64,000 nt of DNA from Pirellulimonas nuda (GTDB lineage: Bacteria; Planctomycetota; Planctomycetia; Pirellulales; Lacipirellulaceae): assembly GCF_007750855.1 (NCBI RefSeq), contig NZ_CP036291.1:1674001-1738000 (forward strand), in the 5' to 3' direction. The translations under genes and the position numbers were made by a program. Under the pieces are notes generated by a model that saw only the letters and a list, made by a program, of their open reading frames with translations, was not told the DNA's origin and made no database searches. Of the stretch, positions 2 to 22,373 are shown one piece after another. Every line of letters starts with the position of its first letter. Positions within the stretch are counted from its first letter, which is position 1.

Positions 2-31
2 TGGGCCGACGTCCAGCCGAGCGAAGCATGA
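2..31 (+). CDS. 3' end of an upstream gene (partial)
   Basis: Reading from base 2, an open frame encodes WADVQPSEA and ends in TGA at 29-31. That stop overlaps the ATG of the next gene in an ATGA arrangement, which suggests translational coupling and a shared operon. Only nine codons are inside the window, so the product cannot be identified, and the frame may be accidental. Confidence 0.35.
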   Translation, partial: WADVQPSEA

Positions 32-876
32 AGTACGGCATCAACCTATTGCTGTGGACCGCCGAGCTGAACGACGGGCTTCTGCCAACGTTCGAGTGGC
101 TTCGCTCGATCGGCTACGACGGCGTAGAGCTGCCGCTGTTCAACCCCGGATTAAACTACGGCGCCTGGGGCCGCCGCTTGGATGAGTTCGGGCTGGAGCG
201 TTCCGCAGTGACCGTGCGCACCGCGGCGGACAACCCCATCAGCCCCGACAGCGCGGTGCGCGCCGCCGGGGTCGAGGCCAACAAGCGGGTGATCGACTGC
301 TGCGTGGCGGCGGGGGCCTCGATGCTGGGAGGTCCTTTTTATTCGGCGCACGGAGAGTTCACCGGCCAGGGCCCGACCGACGACGAGTGGGCCTGGGGAG
401 TGGAGAGCATGCGGATCGTCGCCGAGCACGCCGGCGACGCCGGCGTCGTACTGGCGTTGGAGCCGCTGAACCGCTTCGAGACCTACCTGCTCACCACGCA
501 AGCGGACGCGGCCCGCTTTGTCGCACAGGTCGACCACCCCGCCTGCCAGGTGATGTTTGACACATTCCACGCCCATATCGAGGAAAAAGACTCCTCGGCC
601 GCCATCCGCGTGGCCGGAGAGCGCATTCGCCAGGTCCATATTTCTGAGAATGATCGCAGCACTCCGGGCGCCGGGAGCGTACGCTGGGACGAGACCTTCG
701 ACACGCTGCACGACATCGGCTACGACGGCTGGATGACGGTCGAAGCGTTCGGCCTGGCGATGCCGGAGGTGGCAAGCGCAACCAAGATATGGCGAAGGAT
801 GTACGACAGCGAACAGCAGCTAGCGCGCGAAGCCCTCGCGTTCATGCAGAAGCAGGTCGCCACGCGATGGGTCTAA
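28..876 (+). CDS. sugar phosphate isomerase/epimerase, ketose 3-epimerase-like TIM barrel
   Basis: This 282-residue protein belongs to the xylose-isomerase-like TIM-barrel superfamily and most resembles D-tagatose/D-psicose 3-epimerases, which interconvert ketohexoses at C3 with a divalent metal. The segment ALEPLNRFETYLL (residues 143-155), FDTFHAHIEE (177-186), HISEND (204-209) and VEAF (238-241) are visible. The likely metal ligands E145, D178, H204 and E239 have the same spacing (33, 26, 35) that I recall for Agrobacterium D-psicose 3-epimerase (E150, D183, H209, E244). Length fits the family. Downstream neighbours are a DUF1080 protein and a Gfo/Idh/MocA oxidoreductase, a common planctomycete set for oxidised or keto-sugar catabolism. 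Substrate is inferred; inosose- or hydroxypyruvate-type isomerases remain alternatives. Confidence 0.85.
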   Translation: MKYGINLLLWTAELNDGLLPTFEWLRSIGYDGVELPLFNPGLNYGAWGRRLDEFGLERSAVTVRTAADNPISPDSAVRAAGVEANKRVIDCCVAAGASMLGGPFYSAHGEFTGQGPTDDEWAWGVESMRIVAEHAGDAGVVLALEPLNRFETYLLTTQADAARFVAQVDHPACQVMFDTFHAHIEEKDSSAAIRVAGERIRQVHISENDRSTPGAGSVRWDETFDTLHDIGYDGWMTVEAFGLAMPEVASATKIWRRMYDSEQQLAREALAFMQKQVATRWV

Positions 877-7962: not shown

Positions 7963-9861
<1,899 letters not shown>

Positions 9862-10192
9862 CCGTCAGCGAGTGCTGCGGGCGCCGCTCATACTACACCG
9901 CTAGAGAAAGCTACGGACCACGGATAACGCTGATTTCACGGATCGATCATCAGCTCCGTAGGCCGGAACAAGACCGCCGCAGGCGGGTCGGGTTTAGGCA
10001 CCGGCGGAGAAGTTGGGGCGACTAGGACGCCGCTTGTTGAGGCAAACACTTCTCTGCTGCTTGCCGTAGCGGCGCGGTGCCGGGCGCCATTGCCACGCTC
10101 GCGTGGCAATGCGAATCACCAGAGGCCGCCGATTCTGGCGCCACTCATGGCCACACAAGCGGGGACCTTGGCGCCCGGCGGTCGAGGGGAGG
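9862..10192. other. intergenic region between convergent genes
   Basis: 331 bases between the AAA ATPase and the minus-strand REC/GGDEF-like gene. It contains a phrase of the planctomycete intergenic type (CACGGATAACGCTGATTTC near 9919-9937) and the hairpin listed separately at 10088-10111. I see no open frame worth calling. Confidence 0.45.
10088..10111. repeat. perfect hairpin between convergent genes
   Basis: CATTGCCACGC and GCGTGGCAATG are exact inverted repeats of 11 bases separated by TC. No T-run follows on either strand, so it is not a classic intrinsic terminator. It lies between two convergent genes and may be a REP-like element or a weak bidirectional terminator. Confidence 0.6.
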
Positions 10193-11692
10193 TCAGGCTT
10201 CGACCGGCACCACCAGCGCGGATAGCCCGTCGCCGCCTTGCGGCTCGCGGTAGTAGGTGCCGGTGTCGATCCGGTCGACCACCAGCGACGCGAGCCCCTC
10301 GGACGTGAGGTAGCCGACAGGCCGCTGGGATTCCAGCACGATCAAGTAGTCGTCAACGACCGACCCAAAGGCCTCGAACAGCTCGCTCAGCGGCATCGCC
10401 CCGTCGACCGTGTTCTCTGTGGGCTCGATCCGGCCGGGGTCCAGCACTCCCCCCGCGCCGTGGGGCACGCCGTCGGGGGCGACCACGCCCAGAAGGCCGC
10501 TGGCGGCGTCTAGTACGGGGATGCAGGGGGGGAAGGGGCGGTCGGCCGTGCCGGGATCGCCCCAGCCGGCAGAGACCGGCAGGTCCGCCTTGAGCAGCAG
10601 CGGGAACGCCTCCATCAGGTCGCGGGCCAGCACGTCGTGGAACGGCTTGCCGGTTTCGGTGTCGTGTTTCCAGGCGGACAGCTCTTGCTGCACCGTGGCG
10701 AGATCGAGCACGCAGCCGCCGCCGTAGGCCCCGACTTGTTCGAGTCCCGCGGCCACACGGTCAAGCGCTTCGTCTACCGGGTCGGAGGGGTCCCAAGCCG
10801 TGACCGCGGCCGACAAAGTGGGGCAGGCGCCCGCTGCGGAGGGAGGGGGCTCTGCTACCGCAAACGCCTCGACAACGCCCTCGGCGAACTGTGCGGCCTG
10901 CTCGCTTGAATAGCCGGGCAGCAGCACGACAAACACCCCACTGCCCAGCGCGCACCCCAGCGCATCGGTCGGCAGCGCGTCGGCCAAGCAGCGGGCCGCG
11001 GCCGCCGTAATTTCACGGGCGGATTCTACGCCCAAACGCTGCTCGATCCGCTCACGGGCGTCGACGCCCAGGGCCACTAGGCCGCAAGGCCCGGCGTCTG
11101 CCAGGCGCTGGGCGCGTCGGATCAGCGCGGGACGCAGCAGCAAGCCCGCCCGGGGGTCGCGCGTCGACGTGGCGGTGAAGCGGCGTTCGAACTCGGTCCG
11201 CCGGACGCCGGCGCGGAGGCGGGTAAGCAGCTCGCCGATGTTGATCGGCAGGCGGATCACGTCGTCGGCGCCCATCGCCAGCGCGTCGTCCGCGGGGTCG
11301 ATCAACGCGTTGGCGCCGGGCGCGCAGATCGCGATCCGGTGGGAGTAGGCGGCGGGCGCGGTCTCGGCGGCGAGCGCCTCGGCCGCCTCGGGGTCGCGGG
11401 CGTCAAGCAGCCACAGCGCCTCGTCGCCGCCGGCACGCCACAGCGCGTCGTCCCGCCAGCACGCAGACGCGGTGACGCGGTAGCCGAAGTTCGAGAGCGT
11501 CCACGTCAGGTCGCGCAGCAGCGACCGGTCTTGGGAGACGATGGTGACGGGGATGGCGGTAGGGATGGATTTCACGGTGGTGACGCCCTCCACGGTCCGA
11601 ACGGCAGTAGCAAGACAAGGGCAGGGCGCCCGCGGCGGGGCGTCTGCGATGCGCCCGTTTGATGCGGGCTGTGCGGCGGAGGACCGAAACAT
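10193..11692 (-). CDS. REC-like / degenerate GGDEF / CBS-like signalling protein
   Basis: The ATG at 11692 gives 499 residues. A GTG at 11575, with GGAGG 11 bases upstream, would start the protein right at its first domain and may be the true start. The first ~120 residues after that resemble a response-regulator receiver (VTIVSQDRSLLRDLTWTLSN, ALWLLDARDPEAAE, GADDVIRLPINIGELL). A GGDEF-type fold follows, but the signature position reads GSGVF in LGSGVFVVLLP, so diguanylate cyclase activity is unlikely. The C-terminal ~200 residues contain CBS-like strands (PVLDAASGLLGVVAPDG). It is divergently transcribed from the FHA/EAL-like gene and shares its promoter region. Confidence 0.7.
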   Translation of the reverse strand: MFRSSAAQPASNGRIADAPPRAPCPCLATAVRTVEGVTTVKSIPTAIPVTIVSQDRSLLRDLTWTLSNFGYRVTASACWRDDALWRAGGDEALWLLDARDPEAAEALAAETAPAAYSHRIAICAPGANALIDPADDALAMGADDVIRLPINIGELLTRLRAGVRRTEFERRFTATSTRDPRAGLLLRPALIRRAQRLADAGPCGLVALGVDARERIEQRLGVESAREITAAAARCLADALPTDALGCALGSGVFVVLLPGYSSEQAAQFAEGVVEAFAVAEPPPSAAGACPTLSAAVTAWDPSDPVDEALDRVAAGLEQVGAYGGGCVLDLATVQQELSAWKHDTETGKPFHDVLARDLMEAFPLLLKADLPVSAGWGDPGTADRPFPPCIPVLDAASGLLGVVAPDGVPHGAGGVLDPGRIEPTENTVDGAMPLSELFEAFGSVVDDYLIVLESQRPVGYLTSEGLASLVVDRIDTGTYYREPQGGDGLSALVVPVEA

Positions 11693-11857
11693 CCGCGGTT
11701 CCGATCTCCCCACGCCATTAGAATGCTACTCTTTTTTTGGACGGCCAGCGGAGTCGCCCGCTACTTTTCTGTGCAGTACGCCAACCGGCGGCATTGCGGC
11801 CTAGCCGCGGACGCCGCCCGCCCCAATCCACGTCGAGCCGAGCCGAGGCGAACCAAC

Positions 11858-13000
11858 GTGCCGACAGATTCATCTAATCACCGCGGCGGCCAGCCCCGCT
11901 TCGAGTACTACCCGCCCAACAGCGCCACGCTGCAGACGGTGAGCGTAGAGAAGCTGCCGTTCACCATCGGCCGGGGCGCCGAGGCCGACCTGCAGATCGC
12001 TTCCTCCAGCGTCTCGCGCGAGCACGTGCAGTTGACCTCGTCCGCGGGGCAGTACGTGCTGCGTGACCTGGGGAGCACCAACGGCACCAGCGTGAACGGC
12101 GAACCGATTGCCGAGACCAAGCTGCGCGACGGCGACGTGGTGCGCGTGGCCGACGTTGATCTGACCTTCCTTGTGAACTCGATGAGCCGCCTGCAGCGGA
12201 TGGTGACGCGGCCCCTCTCCGACCCCGCCCGCCCGGCGCCCTCGGCGCCGACGCACGTCAGCGCCGAGGTCGGCTCGTTGCGGTCCATCGAGGAGGCGCT
12301 GCTGTGGCAGGCGCCCACGCTCAACTGGACCTGCATCGTCGACCGCCGGACCCACGCCGAATCGGCCCGCGTGTGCCGGTTGGCGGAACCGCTGGCCGGT
12401 CAGGTCCGCGAGGTCCGGTCGGCCAGGCGCTGCTCGCCCGCCGCACGGCTGCAATCGCTGGCGTGGCGGCTGGCGGCGGCTCAGGCCGCGCCCGACGCCG
12501 CGGGCGCCCTGCTGCTGCACATCGAGAGCCCGGCGTTGTTCGGCGGCTCCCTGCTGGACGACCTAGAAGAGGCCCGGGAGTTGCTGCCCGAAGCAATCGC
12601 GATCGGCGTGGCCGCGCCGTGGGAATGGGCCTCACGCGACCCCAAGACGCTTGAGTCGTGCGCCCGGCTCCAAGAAGCCGGGGCGCAGATCGCCTTCGAT
12701 CACTTTTCGGGGGGCGCCAACTGCGTGCGCGCTCTCCGCGAGGCGACCCCTGATTTCTTGGTGCTGTCGGCGGAGGTCGTCCAAGGGATCGCGGGCCAAA
12801 TCAGGCTGCAGCAACGCCTGAAGTCGGTCGTCGGCGCCTGCGAAGAGCTAGGCATCCCCGTCGCTACGCCGCCGCTACACCATGAAGACATTAGCCGTGA
12901 AGATTTCGACGCGTGCGCCCGCCTGGGCGTCTGCCTGACAGAACAACCACGCTCGCCGGACGGCGCCCCCCCGCGGGCGCCGCGGCGTCTGCTCGTGTAA
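11858..13000 (+). CDS. FHA domain protein with degenerate EAL-like domain
   Basis: The GTG start at 11858 gives 380 residues. The frame is open from an ATG at 11723, but the extra 45 residues look non-coding. The FHA domain is clear: FTIGRGAEADLQIASSSVSR then HVQL, and DLGSTNGTSVNGEP, with the phosphothreonine-binding R, S and N residues. The C-terminal ~230 residues resemble an EAL phosphodiesterase fold, but the EAL motif is absent and the DDFG metal site reads DHFS (IAFDHFSGGANCVRALREA). It is probably a phospho-reader with a non-catalytic EAL domain. It lies 63 bp upstream of the kinase-tubulin gene, which suggests that kinase as its partner. Confidence 0.72.
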   Translation: MPTDSSNHRGGQPRFEYYPPNSATLQTVSVEKLPFTIGRGAEADLQIASSSVSREHVQLTSSAGQYVLRDLGSTNGTSVNGEPIAETKLRDGDVVRVADVDLTFLVNSMSRLQRMVTRPLSDPARPAPSAPTHVSAEVGSLRSIEEALLWQAPTLNWTCIVDRRTHAESARVCRLAEPLAGQVREVRSARRCSPAARLQSLAWRLAAAQAAPDAAGALLLHIESPALFGGSLLDDLEEARELLPEAIAIGVAAPWEWASRDPKTLESCARLQEAGAQIAFDHFSGGANCVRALREATPDFLVLSAEVVQGIAGQIRLQQRLKSVVGACEELGIPVATPPLHHEDISREDFDACARLGVCLTEQPRSPDGAPPRAPRRLLV

Positions 13001-13063: not shown

Positions 13064-15784
13064 ATGACGACCGCCCTCTCCCCCATCGCCCTGCCCGAAG
13101 GCTACGCGCTGCTCGACCGCCTTGGCTCGGGGGGCTACGGCGAGGTGTGGCGGGCCACCGCGCCGGGCGGGATGGAGAAGGCGGTCAAGATCGTCTTCGG
13201 CCACTGCGACGGTGACCTGGCCGAGCGCGAGCTCAAGTCGCTCGACCGCGTCCGCAGCGTCCGGCACCCGTTCTTGTTGACCATCGAGCGCTACGAGGTG
13301 GTGGACAACCGCTTGGTGATCGTCACCGAGCTGGCAGACAAGAGCCTCGACAAGCTGTTCCAAGAGTGCCGCGGCCAGGACAAGCCGGGGATCCCGCGCG
13401 AGCAACTGATCACGCTGCTGACCGACGCGGCCGAGGCGCTCGACTGCCTGAGCGAGCGTCACGGCCTGCAGCACCTCGACATCAAGCCAGAGAACCTGCT
13501 GATCGTCGGCGACCACATCAAGGTGGCCGACTTTGGGCTGGTGAAAGACCTGGCGGCGCGGACCATCAACACGATGGTCGGCGGCATGACGCCCCTCTAC
13601 TCGTCGCCCGAGGTGTACGACGACAACCCCAGCGACCGCAGCGACCAGTACAGCCTAGCGATCGTCTACCAGCAGATGCTTACCGGCACGGTGCCGTTCT
13701 CGGGGCGGACGCCGGCGCAGCTCGCCAAGCAGCACACGATGGCCGAGCCGAACCTCGGCTCGCTAGGCGCCAAAGACCAAGCCGTTGTCGGGCGGGCGTT
13801 GGCAAAGGACCCCTGCAAGCGCTACGCCAGCAACCGAGAGTTTGTGCGGGCGTTGTCCGACGCGCCGGGCGACGCGGGCCACGGCCTCGCCGCCTCGCAG
13901 CCGATCGACGGAGTGCAGCCTTCCTACACGCCCCAGGCCGCCAGCGACACCCGCGCCGCGGTAGCCATCAGCACCACGCCGCTGCCCCAGCAGGGGGGCG
14001 CTACCAACTTGCTGCCGCACGACGGCGCCGACGCGCCGTTGTCGGCCGCGCCCGGCCGGCCCCAGTTGGATTTTCCTCCCGCCGACCACAAAGTTTCCGA
14101 CGCCGCACTCCCGCCGATCGCAGCGCCGCTGGCGAGCATGGCGCAGCCTACGTTGTTCGTCGCCATCGGCGGCGTCGGCGCGCAAATGCTGGCGGCCGTA
14201 CGCGAGCGCTGGGCGGGGCAGGGCGAGGCCGCTCCCCCCGCCGAGTGGCTCGCGTTCGACACCGACCGCGAAGAACTAATGCCGCTCACCCGCGGCGAGT
14301 CGCCGCAGATCGCTCCGGAAGACGTGCTGCTAACCCCGCTCCGCCGACCCAAGGATTACCGCCACGCGTCACGCGACCTGCTGCCGTGGGTCAGCCGGCG
14401 TTGGCTCTACCACATCCCGCGGTCGCTCCAGACCCGCGGCTACCGGCCGCTGGGCCGGATCGCCGCGGTCGACAACGCCGACGCGGTGGTGCGTGCGTTG
14501 CACGCCCGGCTGAGCCGGCTCGCGGCCGACGGCGCCCACGCCGGGCGACCCGTGCAGGTGGTGGTGCTGTCCGGGATGTGCGGCGGCACCGGCGGCGGCG
14601 CGGCCCTGGACATCGCCCAGGCCGCACGCAACCTCGCGGGCGGGCTGTCGCGGGGCGTCTCGGTCCGCGGGGTCTTTGCGCTCACGCCAACCGCCAACGA
14701 CAGCCTGGCCGCGTCGAACCTGGTCTCGTTGCTCACCGAACTTACGCACGCGCAGGCCAGCGGCAACGTCGGCCAGGCGTGCGCCCCCGGCGCCGCCCGG
14801 CACTTCGAGGCGGCAACGCCCCCGTTGGACGAGGCGTACGTGCAGCCGGTCTCCGCGCGCGGCAACGCCTTAGAGCGGCGGGCCGCGCTGGCCGCCATCG
14901 CCGACTATTTGTTGCTGCGTTCCACGATCGACCTGAGCCCCGTGCTGGCCGCCGCCGGCGGCAATGCGGCGGGCATGCTGCGGACCTTCAACGTCGCGCG
15001 GCCGGCGCAGATCGAGCAAGCGGCCGCCGTCCACCGCCAGGCCCGGCTCCAGCAGGCGTTATTGCGGTACTGGGTGGAAGAAGCAGACAGCATGGGCGCC
15101 GCGGGCGACCCAGAACTGCTGGCCTGCTTTGGTCGGCATTCGCGCTCGCGTTTCGCGCGTCAGTTCACCTCGCGCTTCAACCCGATGCTCGCGGCCGAGG
15201 ACCCCAACAGCGACCCGCAGTCCGGCGCGACCCGGCGAGAGTACAAGCGCGCGGTGCAGCACGCTGCCGAGCGCTTCGCGCAGTGGGCGGAACTGCTGCA
15301 GCCGGCTGACGGCGAGGGCTCGGCGGCCGACCCGGCGCTCGCGGCGACCGCGCGGTCGATCAGCGCCGGGGTGATCGATCGGCTCTATGCTTCACGACCG
15401 GCCGGCGACGGCGCGTTGTTTGATTTCCCGTCGCTGGCAAGCTGCCACGACGTGCCCTCCGAGGCTGCTTCGGTAGCGCCGGGCACGCTAGCCGCCGCCG
15501 AGACCGGGGTGCTGGGCTGTGGGCACACGCGTTACTCGCTGCTGCTGACCCCGGCGGCCGAACGCCACGCGCCGTTGGCGAGTGAGCTCTTGAAGCTGCG
15601 CGGAACAGCTACGGTCGCCCAGGCCGAGGTCGACGCCGCGGTGCTGATCTGCGAGGGCGCCGCGCTCGCGCCGGCGCAGATGGCCGCGTGCGTCGCCCAG
15701 GCGCTGCCAGACGTGATGGAAGCCGCCAGCCGGCTGCACGCACGGACGGACATCACCTGGACCGACCTGCGCACGCCGGGCTAG
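13064..15784 (+). CDS. Ser/Thr protein kinase fused to a tubulin/FtsZ-like domain
   Basis: This 906-residue protein begins with a Hanks-type kinase: glycine loop GSGGYGEVW (21-29), lysine K42, catalytic loop HLDIKPENL (137-145; HLD replaces HRD), DFG at 156-158 and SPE at 181-183. A ~85-residue linker follows. From residue ~361 there is a nucleotide-binding fold with an N-terminal glycine-rich loop (LFVAIGGVGAQML) and the tubulin-type signature CGGTGGGAA around 506-514, consistent with the Pfam Tubulin-like family (Tubulin_2). No transmembrane segment is evident. The C-terminal ~250 residues are unassigned. It follows the FHA/EAL-like gene by 63 bp. A kinase controlling, or controlled by, a GTP-dependent polymer is the inference. 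Confidence 0.78.
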   Translation: MTTALSPIALPEGYALLDRLGSGGYGEVWRATAPGGMEKAVKIVFGHCDGDLAERELKSLDRVRSVRHPFLLTIERYEVVDNRLVIVTELADKSLDKLFQECRGQDKPGIPREQLITLLTDAAEALDCLSERHGLQHLDIKPENLLIVGDHIKVADFGLVKDLAARTINTMVGGMTPLYSSPEVYDDNPSDRSDQYSLAIVYQQMLTGTVPFSGRTPAQLAKQHTMAEPNLGSLGAKDQAVVGRALAKDPCKRYASNREFVRALSDAPGDAGHGLAASQPIDGVQPSYTPQAASDTRAAVAISTTPLPQQGGATNLLPHDGADAPLSAAPGRPQLDFPPADHKVSDAALPPIAAPLASMAQPTLFVAIGGVGAQMLAAVRERWAGQGEAAPPAEWLAFDTDREELMPLTRGESPQIAPEDVLLTPLRRPKDYRHASRDLLPWVSRRWLYHIPRSLQTRGYRPLGRIAAVDNADAVVRALHARLSRLAADGAHAGRPVQVVVLSGMCGGTGGGAALDIAQAARNLAGGLSRGVSVRGVFALTPTANDSLAASNLVSLLTELTHAQASGNVGQACAPGAARHFEAATPPLDEAYVQPVSARGNALERRAALAAIADYLLLRSTIDLSPVLAAAGGNAAGMLRTFNVARPAQIEQAAAVHRQARLQQALLRYWVEEADSMGAAGDPELLACFGRHSRSRFARQFTSRFNPMLAAEDPNSDPQSGATRREYKRAVQHAAERFAQWAELLQPADGEGSAADPALAATARSISAGVIDRLYASRPAGDGALFDFPSLASCHDVPSEAASVAPGTLAAAETGVLGCGHTRYSLLLTPAAERHAPLASELLKLRGTATVAQAEVDAAVLICEGAALAPAQMAACVAQALPDVMEAASRLHARTDITWTDLRTPG

Positions 15785-16141: not shown

Positions 16142-17524
16142 GTGACGCTCCTGATCCGCAATGGCCGCATCGTAACCGCGACCGACGACTACGTGGCCGA
16201 CGTGCTGTGCGAGGGCGAGACGATCGCCGCCATCGGGCGCAACCTCACCGCCCCCGGCGGGACGGAGGTGATCGACGCCACGGGCAAGCTGGTCATGCCG
16301 GGGTTCATCGACCCGCACGTGCATATCTACTTGCCGTTCATGGGGACGTACGCCAAGGACGACTACGGCACCGCAAGCCGCGCGGCGCTGGTCGGCGGCA
16401 CCACGACGCTGATCGAGATGTGCTGCCCCAGCCGCAGCGAAGACCCGCTCGAAGCGTTTGAGCTGTGGAAGTCGAAGGCCGAAGGCCTCAGCGCGTGCGA
16501 CTTCACGTTCCACATGGGGGTCACACGGTTCGACGACGACACGCCGCCCAAGCTGCGGCAAATCGTCGAGGCGGGGGTCGCCAGCTTCAAGGTCTTCCTG
16601 GCTTACCAGGGGTTCTTCGGCGTCGACGACACAGAGCTGTACAAGACGCTGCGGCTCGCCAAGGAGCTGGGGGTGATCGTCACCGCCCACTGCGAGAACG
16701 AGACGCTGGTCGCCCAGCTCCAGCAGAAGCTGCTGGCCGAGGGCAAAACCGGCCCCGAGTGGCACGAGCCCTCCCGTCCGCAAGAGGTCGAGGCCGAGGG
16801 GGTCCACCACCTGATGACCTTCGCGGAGCTAACCGGCGCCCACGTCTACATCGTCCACACGAGTTGCGACGGCGCGGTACAAGCGGCGCTCGACGCGCGG
16901 CGCCGCGGAGTGCATGTGGCGATCGAGACGGTGATCCCGTACCTGGTGCTCGACGGCACCTACGCCCAGCAGCCCGACTTCGAGGGCGCCAAGTACGTGA
17001 TGTCGCCACCGATCCGCTCCGCCGATCAGCAGCCGCTGCTGTGGAACCACCTAGCGAGCCGCGACATCGCCACGGTGGCGACCGACCACGCCCCGTTCGA
17101 CTTTCAGCAGCAGAAAGAGATGGGCCGCGACAACTTCACCCTCATCCCCAACGGCATCCCCACCATCGAGCACCGCGCTACGCTGCTCTACACCCACGGC
17201 GTCGCGACGGGCCGCATCAGCCTGAACACGTTCGTCGACTCCGTGAGCACCCAAGCAGCCAAGCTGTTCGGGCTGTTCCCAAGAAAGGGGACGATCGCCG
17301 TAGGCTCCGACGCCGACCTAGTGATCTACGACCCCGACTACCGCGGCACGATCTCTGCCGCGACGCACCAGATGGCGACCGACTACAGCGCGTTCGAGGG
17401 CTGGGAGCAAATCGGCCGCCCGGAGTGGGTGACGGTGCGCGGCGAGGTGGCAGTGCGCGACGGGGCGTTTGTTGGGGAGCTGGGGAGCGGCCAGTTCTTG
17501 AAGCGGGAGCCGACGCACTTTTGA
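16142..17524 (+). CDS. hydA: dihydropyrimidinase / D-hydantoinase
   Basis: This 460-residue amidohydrolase opens dihydrouracil or dihydrothymine to the N-carbamoyl-beta-amino acid, the second step of reductive pyrimidine breakdown. Metal-site motifs are all present: DPHVHIY, the carbamylated lysine in SFKVFLAYQG, HCENE, VHTSCDG and TDHAPF. The start is GTG at 16142, directly before the conserved TLLIRNGRIVTA strand. The preA gene, the permease, beta-ureidopropionase and aminotransferase genes follow on the opposite strand, which supports pyrimidine rather than hydantoin as substrate. An inverted-repeat element begins at the base after its stop codon. Confidence 0.9.
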   Translation: MTLLIRNGRIVTATDDYVADVLCEGETIAAIGRNLTAPGGTEVIDATGKLVMPGFIDPHVHIYLPFMGTYAKDDYGTASRAALVGGTTTLIEMCCPSRSEDPLEAFELWKSKAEGLSACDFTFHMGVTRFDDDTPPKLRQIVEAGVASFKVFLAYQGFFGVDDTELYKTLRLAKELGVIVTAHCENETLVAQLQQKLLAEGKTGPEWHEPSRPQEVEAEGVHHLMTFAELTGAHVYIVHTSCDGAVQAALDARRRGVHVAIETVIPYLVLDGTYAQQPDFEGAKYVMSPPIRSADQQPLLWNHLASRDIATVATDHAPFDFQQQKEMGRDNFTLIPNGIPTIEHRATLLYTHGVATGRISLNTFVDSVSTQAAKLFGLFPRKGTIAVGSDADLVIYDPDYRGTISAATHQMATDYSAFEGWEQIGRPEWVTVRGEVAVRDGAFVGELGSGQFLKREPTHF

Positions 17525-17607
17525 GGGACGATGGACCGGATTACGGGATGGGCGGGATTTACGGGATGAAGAGTAGGATGGGTTATCCCCGTTAGGGGTA
17601 ACCCATC
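17525..17607. repeat. left arm of ~80 bp inverted repeat pair A
   Basis: The arm runs from GGGACGATGGACCGGATTAC to a hairpin made of GATGGGTTATCCCC and AGGGGTAACCCATC (17577-17607). It starts at the first base after the dihydropyrimidinase stop. Its inverted copy at 17963-18040 differs by about three substitutions and a five-base indel. Confidence 0.85.
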
Positions 17608-17652
17608 GGCAGTAAACACAAAGTTATCTTTCTCTCGATTGGAATCAGAAAA

Positions 17653-17934
17653 ATGGACTGGGATCATCCGTTCAATGTAGCAGTAGTCACGGTCGATGAG
17701 GTGATTGCCGGCGAACGAGATGTCGTGCTCGTAATGCATGACGAAGGTCATTGCGGCTTCCAATTCTACGATGGCTACGACGTAGGGGGCCGAAAGCCAC
17801 TCGTCGTTCCCAGGGAGGTGATCCTTGAACTTGATAGCACTCTCGCCGAAGTAACAGATTTACCCGTCGGCTGGTCAGCACGTAGGGAAAAGAAGGGGAG
17901 CGAATGGACTAGAGAGCAATCAGCGGACGTCTAG
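17653..17934 (+). CDS. small hypothetical protein between inverted repeats
   Basis: This 93-residue acidic protein (MDWDHPFNVAVVTVDEVIAG and onward) has no signal peptide or membrane segment and I do not recognise its family. Its GC content is visibly lower than that of the flanking metabolic genes, and the whole gene sits between two near-identical ~80 bp inverted repeats, which suggests an acquired passenger. The ATG is preceded by an A-rich stretch (AGAAAA) with no clear Shine-Dalgarno sequence. Confidence 0.6.
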   Translation: MDWDHPFNVAVVTVDEVIAGERDVVLVMHDEGHCGFQFYDGYDVGGRKPLVVPREVILELDSTLAEVTDLPVGWSARREKKGSEWTREQSADV

Positions 17935-17962
17935 GACGTTAGAAAAGCGATCTACGGGAGGT

Positions 17963-18040
17963 GATGGGTTACCCCTAACGGGGATAACCCATCCTACATC
18001 CCGTCAATCCAGCCCATCCCGTAATCCGGTCCAACGTCCC
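17963..18040. repeat. right arm of ~80 bp inverted repeat pair A
   Basis: Reverse complement of the element at 17525-17607, with the palindromic GATGGGTTACCCCT module on the inside and the GGGACG end on the outside. It ends seven bases before the preA stop codon. Confidence 0.85.
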
Positions 18041-18046
18041 GCCCAA

Positions 18047-19192
18047 TCACCCCCGCGCCAGCGCATCCGACTGATCCACGAAGTCGTCCCCCGACCACTC
18101 CGCGTCCCCCTGGATCATCTTCTTCTGCTGTGCTTTCTGAGATTGGGCCTCGGCCTTCTTGGCGGCGCGGGCCTCGGCTTGGCGCTGCACTAGGTCGGCG
18201 TGGGTGGTGAAGTAGGGGAGGCTCTTGCCGCGGAAGTCGTCGATGGCTTCGAAGCCGTGCTTCTCCATGAACGCCAGCAGCGACTCGCACATCTCCTGGA
18301 CGCAGCGGTAGCCGAACTTCATCACGCCCGTGCAGACCTGCACGGTGTGGCTCCCCAGCAGGATGAACTGCGCCGCGTCTTCGCCCGTCTCGATGCCGCC
18401 GATGCCGCTGAGGGTGCGGCCGGGGAACTCCTTGTTGATCAGCGTGGCGATCTCCATGCACATCCGCAGCGCGATGGGCCGCACCGCGGGCCCGGAGTAG
18501 CCGCCGGGGGTGGTGTAGCCCTCGACCGACGGCTCGGGCCTGAGGGTTTCTAGGTCGACCGCCACGACGCTGCGGATGGTGTTGATGGCCGCTACCCCCT
18601 GGCAGCCGGCCCGCAGGCTGGCGCGGGTGGGGTCTTCGATGTGCGTGACGTTGGGGGTCATCTTGGCCCACACGGGGAGCTTGGCGACTTGCATCACCCA
18701 GCCGCACACCTCTTCGAGGATCTCCGGGTTTTCGCCCATCGCGGCGCCCATCCGCCGTTCGGGGAGCCCGTGGGGACAGCTCATGTTCAGCTCGAACGCG
18801 TCGACGCCCGCCTCCTCGCACCGGCCCACAATCTCTTGCCAGGCGCCCTTGCTGTACTCCTCCATGATGGACGCGATCAGCACCCCCTCGGCGTGCGAGT
18901 CCTTCAGCCGCTTGAACTCGTCGATCCAGGTGTCGAATGAGCGGTCGCTGATGAGTTCGATGTTCTCCCAACCATAAATCTCGTCGCTCTGGCGTCCCCG
19001 GAGCCGCGCGTACCGAGGCTGCACGTTGTTCACCTTGCCGGCGTCGAGGCTCACCGTCTTACAAATCACGGCCCCCCAGCCATCGTCAAACGCCCGGCCG
19101 ATCACCTTGCCGTTGGTGCCGGGAGGGCCCGAGCCAATGACGAACGGGTTGGGGAGGCGGAGGCCGTCGACGGTGGTTTGGAGCGTGGGCAT
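18047..19192 (-). CDS. preA: dihydropyrimidine dehydrogenase (PreA-type), lacking ferredoxin domain
   Basis: This 381-residue TIM-barrel flavoprotein catalyses or carries the reductive first step of uracil/thymine degradation. NPFVIGSGPPGTNGKVIGRA, FELNMSCPHGLPERRMG (catalytic cysteine), AINTIRSVVAVD, the GYSGPAVRP FMN region and IGGIETGEDAAQFILLGS are all conserved. Standard PreA (about 411 residues) ends in a two-[4Fe-4S] ferredoxin domain. Here the C terminus is instead a Lys/Gln/Ala-rich tail with no CxxCxxC motif, and no preT gene is present in the window. It is followed by an inverted repeat and the aminotransferase gene. Confidence 0.88.
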   Translation of the reverse strand: MPTLQTTVDGLRLPNPFVIGSGPPGTNGKVIGRAFDDGWGAVICKTVSLDAGKVNNVQPRYARLRGRQSDEIYGWENIELISDRSFDTWIDEFKRLKDSHAEGVLIASIMEEYSKGAWQEIVGRCEEAGVDAFELNMSCPHGLPERRMGAAMGENPEILEEVCGWVMQVAKLPVWAKMTPNVTHIEDPTRASLRAGCQGVAAINTIRSVVAVDLETLRPEPSVEGYTTPGGYSGPAVRPIALRMCMEIATLINKEFPGRTLSGIGGIETGEDAAQFILLGSHTVQVCTGVMKFGYRCVQEMCESLLAFMEKHGFEAIDDFRGKSLPYFTTHADLVQRQAEARAAKKAEAQSQKAQQKKMIQGDAEWSGDDFVDQSDALARG

Positions 19193-19200
19193 GACGACGT

Positions 19201-19399
19201 TTTACCACGAAGGGCACAAAGAAGCACGACGGACGCAAAGACGAATAGGACGCGGATGAACGCGGATTACAACGGATTGACAGGGGTCAAGAGAAGGATG
19301 GAATTAATCCGTTTCAATCCTCTAGATCCGCGTTCATCCGCGTCCCATTCTTCCTGCTCTCTTGCTTTCCTTCGTGCCCCTTGGCGCCCGTAGTGGTTA
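19201..19399. repeat. imperfect ~65-75 bp inverted repeat between preA and aminotransferase genes
   Basis: The left arm starts TTTACCACGAAGGGCACAAA and ends with GGACGCGGATGAACGCGGAT (19248-19267). The right arm begins with its exact complement (19325-19344) and ends at TAGTGGTTAA, overlapping the aminotransferase stop. The inner 20 bases pair perfectly; the outer parts are diverged. There is no open frame of note inside. Confidence 0.7.
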
Positions 19400-20737
19400 A
19401 CCTTTTTGGAGCTCGGTGAAGACTTCGTCCAGCATCGCCGTCAGATAGTCTGAATCGTCTTTAGTGATGCACATGGGGGGTTTGATCCGCAGGGTGTTGC
19501 CGTACAGGCCCCCCTTGCCGAGCAGCACGCCGCGGTCTTTCATACGCTCCATCACCGCGGCGGCCTCGGTGTTCGCGGGTTCCTTGGTCTTGCGGTCGCG
19601 GACCAGCTCGACGCCGAGCATCAGCCCGAGGCCGCGGACCTCGCCGATGATCGGGTGCTTTTCCTGGAGCGCCAGCAATGAGTCCTTCATGTGGCCGCCG
19701 ACGACGCGGGCGTTCTCTTGGATGCCCTCTTCGTCAATCACTTCCAGCGTCGCGAGCCCCTGGGTCATGCTGACGGGGTTGCCGCCGAAGGTGTTGAAGT
19801 GGATCCGGTTGTTCATGACTTTCGAGATTTCTTCGGTGGTGGTGAAGGCCCCCAGCGGGATGCCGTTGCCGATGCCCTTGGCCATCGTGATGCCGTCTGG
19901 CTTGACGCCCCAGTGCTGGTGAGACCAGTAGTGCTCGCCGGTGCGGCCGAAGCCCCCCTGCACCTCGTCTGCGTAGCACAGGCCGCCGTACTTGCGGACG
20001 ATCTCGTAGATGATTTGGAAGTACTCCTTGGGGGGAGTCACCGCGCCGCCGACCCCCTGGATGGGCTCGCCGATAAAGCAGGCCACCTCCCCCGGGGTTT
20101 GGTAGCGGATCACCTCTTCGATGTCGCGGGCGCACTTCAGGTCGCACGAGGGGTACTCCAGCCCGTAGGGGCAGCGGTAGCAGTAGCCGGCGTGCGTGTG
20201 GTGGATCCCCAGCGTCTGGTTGCTCTTAAACTTCCACGTGCCGTGCGCGGTCAGCCCCATCGTGGTAGAGGTTCCGCCGTGGTACGCGTTGCGCAGCGCG
20301 ATGACGTCGGTGTTGCCGGTGTGCTCGCGGGCACTGAGGATGGCGACCTCGTTCGCCTCGCTGCCGCTGTTGGTGAAGTAGCTGCGGGTGAGCCCGTCGG
20401 GCATCTTCGAGGCCAGCTTCTCGGCGAACTGTCCCAGCACCGGGTTCAGGTAGATGGTGGTGGTGTGCTGCAGCTTGCCCGACTGCGCCTGCACCTTTTC
20501 CAGCACCTTGGGGTGGCAGTGTCCCACGCTCACCGTCACGATCCCCGCAAACGCGTCGAGATACCGCCGCCCGGTCTCGTCCCACACGTACTGCATCTTC
20601 CCCTCGACGATCATCAAGGGCTCTTTGTAGTACGTAATCACGCCGGGCGAGACGTACTGCTTCCGCAGCGCGATCACCTCCGCGCGCGACGGGCCGGTGT
20701 AGGGGGCGGGCTGGTGGTTGATGATGGGGAGCTGCAT
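19397..20737 (-). CDS. class III aminotransferase (AGXT2 / beta-alanine transaminase-like)
   Basis: This 446-residue PLP enzyme has the fold-type I class III signature YADEVQGGFGRTGEHYW followed by the PLP lysine in MAKGIGNGIPLGAF, and the N-terminal block YLDAFAGIVTVSVGHCHPKV typical of alanine-glyoxylate aminotransferase 2. AGXT2-type enzymes accept beta-alanine and beta-aminoisobutyrate, so here it most likely converts the beta-amino acid from pyrimidine breakdown to malonate or methylmalonate semialdehyde. It lies between preA and the permease on the same strand. The amino acceptor cannot be read from sequence. Confidence 0.88.
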   Translation of the reverse strand: MQLPIINHQPAPYTGPSRAEVIALRKQYVSPGVITYYKEPLMIVEGKMQYVWDETGRRYLDAFAGIVTVSVGHCHPKVLEKVQAQSGKLQHTTTIYLNPVLGQFAEKLASKMPDGLTRSYFTNSGSEANEVAILSAREHTGNTDVIALRNAYHGGTSTTMGLTAHGTWKFKSNQTLGIHHTHAGYCYRCPYGLEYPSCDLKCARDIEEVIRYQTPGEVACFIGEPIQGVGGAVTPPKEYFQIIYEIVRKYGGLCYADEVQGGFGRTGEHYWSHQHWGVKPDGITMAKGIGNGIPLGAFTTTEEISKVMNNRIHFNTFGGNPVSMTQGLATLEVIDEEGIQENARVVGGHMKDSLLALQEKHPIIGEVRGLGLMLGVELVRDRKTKEPANTEAAAVMERMKDRGVLLGKGGLYGNTLRIKPPMCITKDDSDYLTAMLDEVFTELQKG

Positions 20738-20768
20738 GGGGATGGTTGGGCGAAGGACGTAAGGGGAG

Positions 20769-20924
20769 GTGGGGATGAAAAAGAGATGGGGGGATGGTCA
20801 CGCGAGGGTTTGATTTCTTTTCGGTGGCGAAGACAGTTTGATTCCTTCCTCTGAGGGCGGGCTCTTGACGATTGCAGGTCGGCGCCTCCGAGAGACCATC
20901 CCCCTATCCCGTCGTCATCCCCAC
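20769..20924. repeat. 31 bp imperfect inverted repeat between aminotransferase and permease genes
   Basis: Arms at 20769-20799 and 20894-20924 begin GTGGGGATGA and finish GGGGGATGGTC, with 26 of 31 positions complementary. They fill the gap between the aminotransferase start and the permease stop. It could form a long hairpin in the transcript. Confidence 0.65.
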
Positions 20925-20930
20925 ATCCCC

Positions 20931-22373
20931 CTAGGTGATATCCCCCCCTTCGGGCACCAGCACGCCGGGGCCGACGAGGCCCCGTTCTTTGTCGGTGCCC
21001 GGGATCAGGTTGTCGAGCGTGATGCCCAAGATGGCGGCAACCGCCATGCCGGTCTTGCCCACGGCGCCGAGGATGGGACCGAGGCCCCACGGGACCGCGT
21101 TGATCATCGCTTCACCGGCGTCGCTGTAGAAGTACGCGGGGACGCTGAGGCCCATGAACAACGCGAAGCCGCCGATCAGCAGGTTGCGGTCGCTGCTCAG
21201 GTCGGCCTGGGCAAACTGCCGCACCCCGACGGCAGAGATCAGCCCGAACATCACGCAGTACAGGCCCCCCACCACCGGCTGCGGGATGGCCGCGGCCACG
21301 GCGCCGAACTTGCCGAACAGCCCCAGCACGATCAGCAGCACGCCGGCGAGCTGCACCACGTACCGGCTGCCGACCTTGGTGAGCCCCACGAGGCCGACGT
21401 TCTCGGAGTAGCTGGTGCTGCTGAACCCGCCGAACATGCCCGTCAGCGCGCAGCCAATGCCCTCAAAGCCGATGCCGCGCGAGATCTGCTCGGGGCTTGG
21501 ATCCCCCGCGCCGGCAAGCTGGCTGCACGCGTGGTAGTCGCCGAACGACTCGATCATCGACGCCAGGTAGCCGGCCAGCACCGCGACCACGAACGCAGTG
21601 GAGAACCGGGGCAGGCCCCAGGGGAAGAAGACGCCTGTCGTGCGGAGCCACTCGGCGTGCTCGACCGCGTCGAAGCTGACCCGTGCCGGGTGCTCGGGGC
21701 CGTAGACCCCCGTGGCGGTAAGCACCCCGCATACGCCGACGGCGCCGAGGATCGCTAGCAGCATCGGGAAGAGGCGGAACACGAGGCTGTGACGGGCCAA
21801 CACCAGCGAGAACGAGATGATCAACGCCATTGTCAGCAGGCTGGTGGGCCAGTGCCCCGCGGCCACGGGCGCCCCGGCGCCGTAGAGCGCCAGACCGATC
21901 AGCATAATCACCGGCCCCACCACCACGGGCGAGAGGTACCGCCGCACCGCGCCGGCCAGCCCCGAGAAGCCGATCGCCATCTCGGCCAGTGCGCCGAGGA
22001 TCACGGCGCCCGCGATGTACTGCATGCACATGCCGCCGTCGCCACCAAGGCCTCCTTCGCTTGTCGGCTTGAGGACCGTCGGGATGATCACCCCCGAGAA
22101 CGCAGCCAAGAACGAAAAACTAACCCCCTGGATGATCGGCAGCCGCGAGCCGAACGTGGTCTGGAGCAGCGTCGCCACGCCGCTGCAGAGCATGACCGAA
22201 GAAATAAGCAGCGCGGTCTCCGTGGCGTCCATCCCCATCGCCGGCGCCAGCAGCAGCGGCACGGCGACCGTCGAGCCGAACATCGTGAGCACATGCTGCA
22301 CGGCCAGCACCATCGCACGCGGCAGGGGGGGCTTGGAGTCGATGCCGTAGATAATCGGCTGGTTCTCCTGCAT
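20931..22373 (-). CDS. uracil/xanthine permease (NCS2 family)
   Basis: This 480-residue polytopic membrane protein (about 14 helices) belongs to the nucleobase:cation symporter 2 family. The start (VLAVQHVLTMFGSTVAVPLL) carries the QH motif of family TM1, LPIIQGVSFSFLAAF follows, and SFGDYHACSQLAG and GGFSSTSYSENVGLVGLTKV match the substrate-binding TM8-TM10 region. Its place between preA/aminotransferase and beta-ureidopropionase points to uracil or thymine uptake. Confidence 0.9.
   Translation of the reverse strand: MQENQPIIYGIDSKPPLPRAMVLAVQHVLTMFGSTVAVPLLLAPAMGMDATETALLISSVMLCSGVATLLQTTFGSRLPIIQGVSFSFLAAFSGVIIPTVLKPTSEGGLGGDGGMCMQYIAGAVILGALAEMAIGFSGLAGAVRRYLSPVVVGPVIMLIGLALYGAGAPVAAGHWPTSLLTMALIISFSLVLARHSLVFRLFPMLLAILGAVGVCGVLTATGVYGPEHPARVSFDAVEHAEWLRTTGVFFPWGLPRFSTAFVVAVLAGYLASMIESFGDYHACSQLAGAGDPSPEQISRGIGFEGIGCALTGMFGGFSSTSYSENVGLVGLTKVGSRYVVQLAGVLLIVLGLFGKFGAVAAAIPQPVVGGLYCVMFGLISAVGVRQFAQADLSSDRNLLIGGFALFMGLSVPAYFYSDAGEAMINAVPWGLGPILGAVGKTGMAVAAILGITLDNLIPGTDKERGLVGPGVLVPEGGDIT

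Follow-up and report, generated by a model that had tools for sequence, protein, structure and literature searches.

What does a tubulin-like domain joined to a protein kinase do in a planctomycete? The question is raised by one gene, called KT in this text, in a stretch of 64,000 nucleotides of Pirellulimonas nuda DNA (the window). To our knowledge, Planctomycetes have no FtsZ and show unusual cell plans. We propose, with moderate confidence in the whole explanation (module and mechanism together), that KT lies at the centre of a four-gene signalling-cytoskeleton module that is conserved in Pirellulales. KT and its three companion genes suggest a self-signalling cytoskeletal device, and the conserved partner genes are a more interesting part of it than the fusion.

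The fusion itself is already known. In Planctomycetes, the joining of a kinase to a tubulin-like domain was named in 2010 (FtsZl1 family; Makarova & Koonin, PMC2875224), the position of the kinase domain N-terminal to the tubulin-like domain was restated in 2023 (PMC9871819), and in 2024 the tubulin-like domain was reported to accompany the cytoplasmic Ser/Thr kinases of Planctomycetota more often than any other partner does (PMC11032199). Since all three report such a fusion in Planctomycetes, the novelty that the preliminary description saw in it falls. KT resembles FtsZl1 in its domain order, in its bacterial order and in a Tubulin_2 match above the cut-off; the FtsZl1 list names Rhodopirellula baltica and Blastopirellula marina, and B. 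marina DSM 3645 was recovered here too. Unlike FtsZl1, the KT of the window is a short divergent paralogue, and the conserved partners found for it are FHA-EAL, AAA+ and GGDEF-CBS proteins instead of the vWA, diverged GTPase and OmpA genes that are the typical, not universal, context of that family (PMC2875224). On the other hand, the partner module is apparently undescribed: no description of it was found in the searchable literature, a scope that includes few subscription papers and, for Makarova & Koonin, the main text. Table 1 summarizes the features of the locus.

Table 1. Positions of KT, its domains and loops, and its three partner genes in the window.
Feature	Position	Strand	Basis
AAA+ ATPase, winged-helix-like N-terminal region, Walker A GPPGNGKTT, LLIDDFG	7963..9861	+	sequence, relatives
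Divergent REC-GGDEF-CBS-type gene, GGDEF motif lost (GSGVF)	10193..11713	-	Pfam GGDEF 7.8e-06; relatives with REC and CBS
FHA-EAL gene, 63 bp upstream of KT, same strand	11858..13000	+	Pfam FHA 1.2e-18, EAL 1.3e-11
FHA domain, phosphothreonine-binding G-R, S, H, N residues	11963..12148	+	Pfam, family alignment
Degenerate EAL domain, catalytic E, N, D2, K replaced	12416..12862	+	Pfam, alignment
Kinase-Tubulin_2 fusion gene (KT), 906 aa, short subfamily	13064..15784	+	ORF translation, Pfam, tree
Hanks-type Ser/Thr kinase domain, residues 14-270	13103..13873	+	Pfam PF00069 E 9.5e-29, motifs
S/T/P/A-rich linker, residues 271-359, weakly conserved; candidate autophosphorylation region (inferred)	13874..14140	+	alignment
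Complete tubulin-superfamily fold (predicted), residues 360-887	14141..15724	+	AlphaFold2, Foldseek, VIA-align
T1 nucleotide loop VAIGGVGA, residues 366-373	14159..14182	+	FtsZ alignment; GG invariant in family alignment A1
T4 loop CGGTGGG, residues 506-512, tubulin signature	14579..14599	+	sequence, FtsZ alignment
Expected T7 region STIDLSPVLAA	14924..14956	+	position inferred from order of secondary-structure elements in model
Helical insertion splitting the C-terminal tubulin domain, about 165 aa	15002..15499	+	DSSP on model, alignments
C-terminal alpha/beta (activation) domain of the tubulin fold, conserved ending RLHxRxDIxW	15527..15724	+	model, VIA-align, alignment

The KT frame has no internal stop across its 906 aa. 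The Pkinase family matches residues 14-227 (E 9.5e-29), and the complete set of Hanks-type motifs read in the preliminary description (G-loop GSGGYG, K42, HLDIKPEN, DFG and SPE) is present. Intact kinase motifs occur in 88 of the 90 KT relatives, always with HLD and not HRD, and because the catalytic loop reads HLD the kinase is of the 'non-RD' kind. Among the matches listed, the plasmid-borne relatives align with the kinase half only and none reaches 80% query coverage.

By its profile matches, the tubulin part of KT belongs to the Tubulin_2/FtsZl1 branch and not to FtsZ. Tubulin_2 (PF13809) matches residues 364-621 with E 3.7e-21 and 76.2 bits (curated cut-off 27), while PF00091 gives E 0.006 over 27 residues and 17.3 bits, under its cut-off of 33, and the FtsZ model TIGR00065 scores 9.3 bits against a cut-off of 295. 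In a sequence search of the PDB, FtsZ had E 0.24, which is not significant, and the fold comparison alone gave significance. An AlphaFold2 model of residues 348-906, built from an alignment of 33 Pirellulales relatives, has a mean pLDDT of 88.3 and a pTM of 0.86. Its best 50 Foldseek matches in the PDB all belong to the tubulin superfamily with CetZ at the top (E 4.1e-8), and VIA-align superposes the model (range 13..540) on CetZ 3zid with Z 26.4 and rmsd 3.7 over 301 residues. The archaeal CetZ structures (3zid, 4b45, 4b46) are the best structural match, with Z 25-26 over about 300 residues; unlike KT they have neither a kinase fusion nor the insertion, and their identity with KT is 12-15%. 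The catalytic T7 is present in CetZ. When the other kinase-tubulin protein encoded in the genome of the window was modelled, it showed the same layout as KT (Z 23.3) and a longer insertion.

The tubulin-type reading of the C-terminal half is therefore far beyond chance, since the Tubulin_2 match and the predicted fold agree. They bear out the T1 loop and the tubulin-type T4 glycine motif that the preliminary description had picked out, and the comparison with FtsZ/tubulin and Tubulin_2 that it proposed returned a complete tubulin/CetZ fold with PF13809 above its cut-off. Makarova & Koonin had no alignment past helix H5, did not identify T6-H7 and found the C-terminal domain unlike that of known FtsZ/tubulins (PMC2875224). 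For the KT subfamily the model answers this question of the C-terminal domain: it predicts that the tubulin fold is complete but carries an inserted stretch of helices, which is longer in the paralogues of ~1150 aa and nearly absent in those of ~790 aa.

Loops T1, T2, T3 and T4 of KT line up with those of E. coli FtsZ (T2 is AFDTD against AVNTD) in an hhalign comparison with that single sequence, whose E of 0.005 and probability of 7% make it a means of loop assignment and not a proof. In KT the T4 signature GGGTG(S/T)G is present, starting with C and having G at the S/T position; the strict form GGTG[SGT]G is found in 50 of the 90 relatives, and the loop is imperfect in the other 40. Unlike bacterial FtsZ, KT has an N-terminal kinase, is not a single-copy division gene and has no recognisable NxDxxD in T7: the acid motif NxDxx(D/E) was not recognised by sequence in the expected region, as placed by the order of secondary-structure elements in the model. 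In the relatives this stretch often reads (T/S)PAxxFFD. GTP binding by the tubulin domain is plausible because T1-T4 are present, and normal GTP hydrolysis is doubtful; GTPase-driven dynamics may be altered, since the canonical T7 acid is not recognisable. Given T7 and the imperfect T4, hydrolysis or even binding could have been lost in some relatives.

Upstream of KT in the window lie, in order, the FHA-EAL gene, the divergent GGDEF gene and the AAA+ ATPase gene. The FHA-EAL reading frame opens at 11723 and the start common to its family is likely the GTG at 11858. The GGDEF gene of the window has receiver-like and GGDEF regions, and CBS domains are seen in its relatives. The AAA+ ATPase is the most conserved partner, with 49-78% identity to its relatives over the core, and no Pfam family matches it above its cut-off. 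Three gene orders recur, namely AAA><GGDEF-CBS FHA-EAL>KT> (the window type), AAA>KT>FHA-EAL> and <FHA-EAL AAA>KT>. We counted neighbours in the well-flanked loci, defined by at least 4 kb upstream and 3 kb downstream, which are 58 of the 90 non-identical Pirellulales loci. FHA-EAL genes are found in 58/58 of them, AAA+ in 47/58 and GGDEF-CBS in 25/58; the last, in degenerate form, belongs to one lineage type. An unbiased all-against-all clustering of the neighbours in 33 loci returned exactly these four families, KT included, with the next family in 4/33, so that no fifth conserved neighbour emerged from it.

The partners also occur together when whole genomes are compared, in counts that ignore shared ancestry. 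Of 99 genomes, 41 have the AAA subfamily that scores high (about 700 bits or more), and all 41 are KT carriers (genome G279 was counted from pieces at contig edges), and a full FHA-EAL gene is present in 40 of the 42 KT genomes and in one other genome of the 99. Genome G028 carries a Tubulin_2 gene without kinase (L187, C247, 4646-8616) with the AAA+ gene still adjacent, and it gave no full-length FHA-EAL hit. Such a pairing is expected if the FHA domain reads the product of the kinase. A conserved neighbourhood of this kind indicates functional association, not the order of events.

What is kept and what is lost within the partners is informative as well. The phosphothreonine-binding residues of the FHA domain are invariant (79/79), and the FHA of the window has the HMM match together with the GR, SxxH and N residues. 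The EAL domain of the window reads VIADHVPE at the eight catalytic columns, where E, N, E, D, D, K, E, Q are expected, which is not a phosphodiesterase pattern. When 'intact' is taken as at least 7 of the 8 scored columns (the Asn column was scored one position off; the intact sequences do show the NTHP motif), EAL is intact in 40 of the 47 loci without a GGDEF-CBS gene versus 0 of the 33 with one; the window locus is of the degenerate-EAL kind. The GG(D/E)EF motif is broken throughout the module genes, and the GSGVF of the window is not that of a diguanylate cyclase. With the kinase motifs and FHA residues kept, EAL lost in part of the loci and GGDEF broken, phosphorylation and its reading form the constant core and the c-di-GMP chemistry is optional. 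The self-regulated, phosphorylation-controlled nature of KT, which the preliminary description had inferred, is plausible and is strengthened because an FHA phospho-reader is always next door.

Two loci are worth recording beside these counts. The second module of the same genome (L040, G000 C1:2406589-2412093) has the order AAA>KT>FHA-EAL with an intact EAL and no GGDEF gene. At 13500-15197 of locus L051, a second GGDEF protein beside the module has an intact GGEEF, unlike every module GGDEF.

The mechanism that we favour within this explanation is one in which a GTP-bound tubulin-like assembly clusters its own kinase, the FHA-EAL protein is recruited to the phospho-linker and the AAA+ ATPase remodels the complex; we infer every functional step of it. 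The tubulin domain of KT would bind GTP and self-associate into filaments or oligomers, and the assembly would gather the kinase domains, so that they would phosphorylate either the S/T-rich linker of KT itself or one another. The resulting phosphothreonine of KT would be the docking site for the FHA domain of the protein encoded next door. Where EAL is intact, a c-di-GMP phosphodiesterase would be attached to the KT assembly; where it is degenerate, as in the window, the FHA-EAL protein would be an adaptor or a c-di-GMP sensor together with the degenerate GGDEF-CBS protein. The AAA+ ATPase would remodel or disassemble the complex, which our proposal needs because KT without a recognisable T7 acid may hydrolyse GTP slowly. 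The likely output would be a rearrangement of the cytoplasm, the envelope or the surface of these bacteria, which lack FtsZ, and not division itself. The substrate of the kinase could be another protein, and the polymer is putative, since the canonical T7 acid is not recognised.

A more specific version of this mechanism, which we consider rather doubtful, is a tubulin-like polymer that phosphorylates itself and whose state of assembly FHA-EAL reads. Polymerisation would be coupled to local c-di-GMP breakdown in the intact loci, the c-di-GMP enzymes would have become structural adaptors in the degenerate loci (including the window), and the AAA+ ATPase would be a dedicated disassembly factor. 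With the fixed partnership of kinase-tubulin, FHA, EAL and AAA+, what was a vague 'FtsZ-like fusion' becomes a concrete circuit, testable in isolated Pirellulales such as Botrimarina, Adhaeretor, Lacipirellula and Blastopirellula. This circuit would be a first proposal to connect a tubulin-like polymer with c-di-GMP signalling. One genome with both an intact-EAL and a degenerate-EAL locus offers a natural comparison, and the kinase-less tubulin locus of G028 a natural experiment.

The main rival to the polymer model is a non-polymerising tubulin domain that senses GTP/GDP and switches the kinase on or off, so that the module would be a soluble one-component signalling hub with no filament. We regard it as possible but less likely than not. 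The unrecognisable T7 acid and the variable-size helical insertions that split the C-terminal domain favour it, and Makarova & Koonin thought that FtsZl1 might not form filaments (PMC2875224); however, KT retains the complete fold and, as part of it, the C-terminal domain, which touches neighbouring subunits in filaments, and its fold neighbours among the matches listed are all from filament-forming families. The same authors proposed a membrane-remodelling or vesicle machine for FtsZl1, the Pfam family to which KT also belongs, from the vWA, GTPase and OmpA gene context (PMC2875224). For the KT module we find this improbable, because none of these families was found by Pfam among the scanned neighbours in the window, the 33 clustered loci gave no further conserved family, and inspection of the four conserved sequences by eye revealed no obvious membrane anchor.

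A defence or conflict system, similar to the kinase-AAA defence systems, was considered because PADLOC matches the kinase to PD-T4-6 and mad6 and the AAA protein weakly to IetA, and because tubulin-GTPase conflict systems exist (Kaur et al. 2020, PMC7159879). The latter, found mainly in actinobacteria and firmicutes, likewise encode a bacterial tubulin with a regulatory NTPase, but TRAFAC GTPases, GAP1 and vWA proteins are central to them and none was identified at the KT locus (PMC7159879). We rejected this candidate as quite improbable: the PADLOC matches extend no further than the generic kinase domain or a short AAA stretch, the locus has retained its four partners across families and has not travelled with mobile genes, and neither a nuclease nor a pore-forming effector was identified next to it. 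More improbable still is that KT is a division tubulin replacing FtsZ. It has a tubulin fold, and no PF00091 member was found at E <= 1e-3 in the genome of the window (a single 6.62 Mb contig, 95.9% complete, with two kinase-Tubulin_2 genes), while 13 of 14 control genomes have one. On the other hand, the KT family is present in 42 of the 99 sampled genomes of the order (in G291 as a C-terminal fragment only) and in 8 of 196 in the phylum sample, so that most relatives divide without it. KT is thus not a general FtsZ substitute; its patchy presence disfavours a general division role, and this candidate was rejected on distribution.

Named carriers include Bythopirellula, Aeoliella, Botrimarina, Adhaeretor, Lacipirellula and Blastopirellula marina, and the members outside the order score weakly. 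The search with family alignment A1 found 78 related loci, of which a single-protein query confirmed none. In the tree, the clade of short KT proteins that holds the window copy is well supported (0.996-1.0). A genome from another class of the phylum has two adjacent Tubulin_2 genes (G099 C107:55221-58692), the first without a kinase domain by the family kinase HMM.

Some relatives of the partner genes lie outside the module. Most genomes of the order carry two more groups of paralogues of the module AAA+ ATPase, at about 500-634 bits. A third full-length FHA-EAL gene (G000 C1:2188106-2189164; L186, about 9100-10170) is not beside KT, and solitary copies similar to it are found in several other genomes of the order. 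Downstream of KT in the window, at 16142-22373, is a pyrimidine-degradation-like set that is not conserved with KT: amidohydrolase/dihydropyrimidinase-like, PreA-like dehydrogenase, aminotransferase and uracil-permease-like genes, of which the amidohydrolase was scanned with Pfam.
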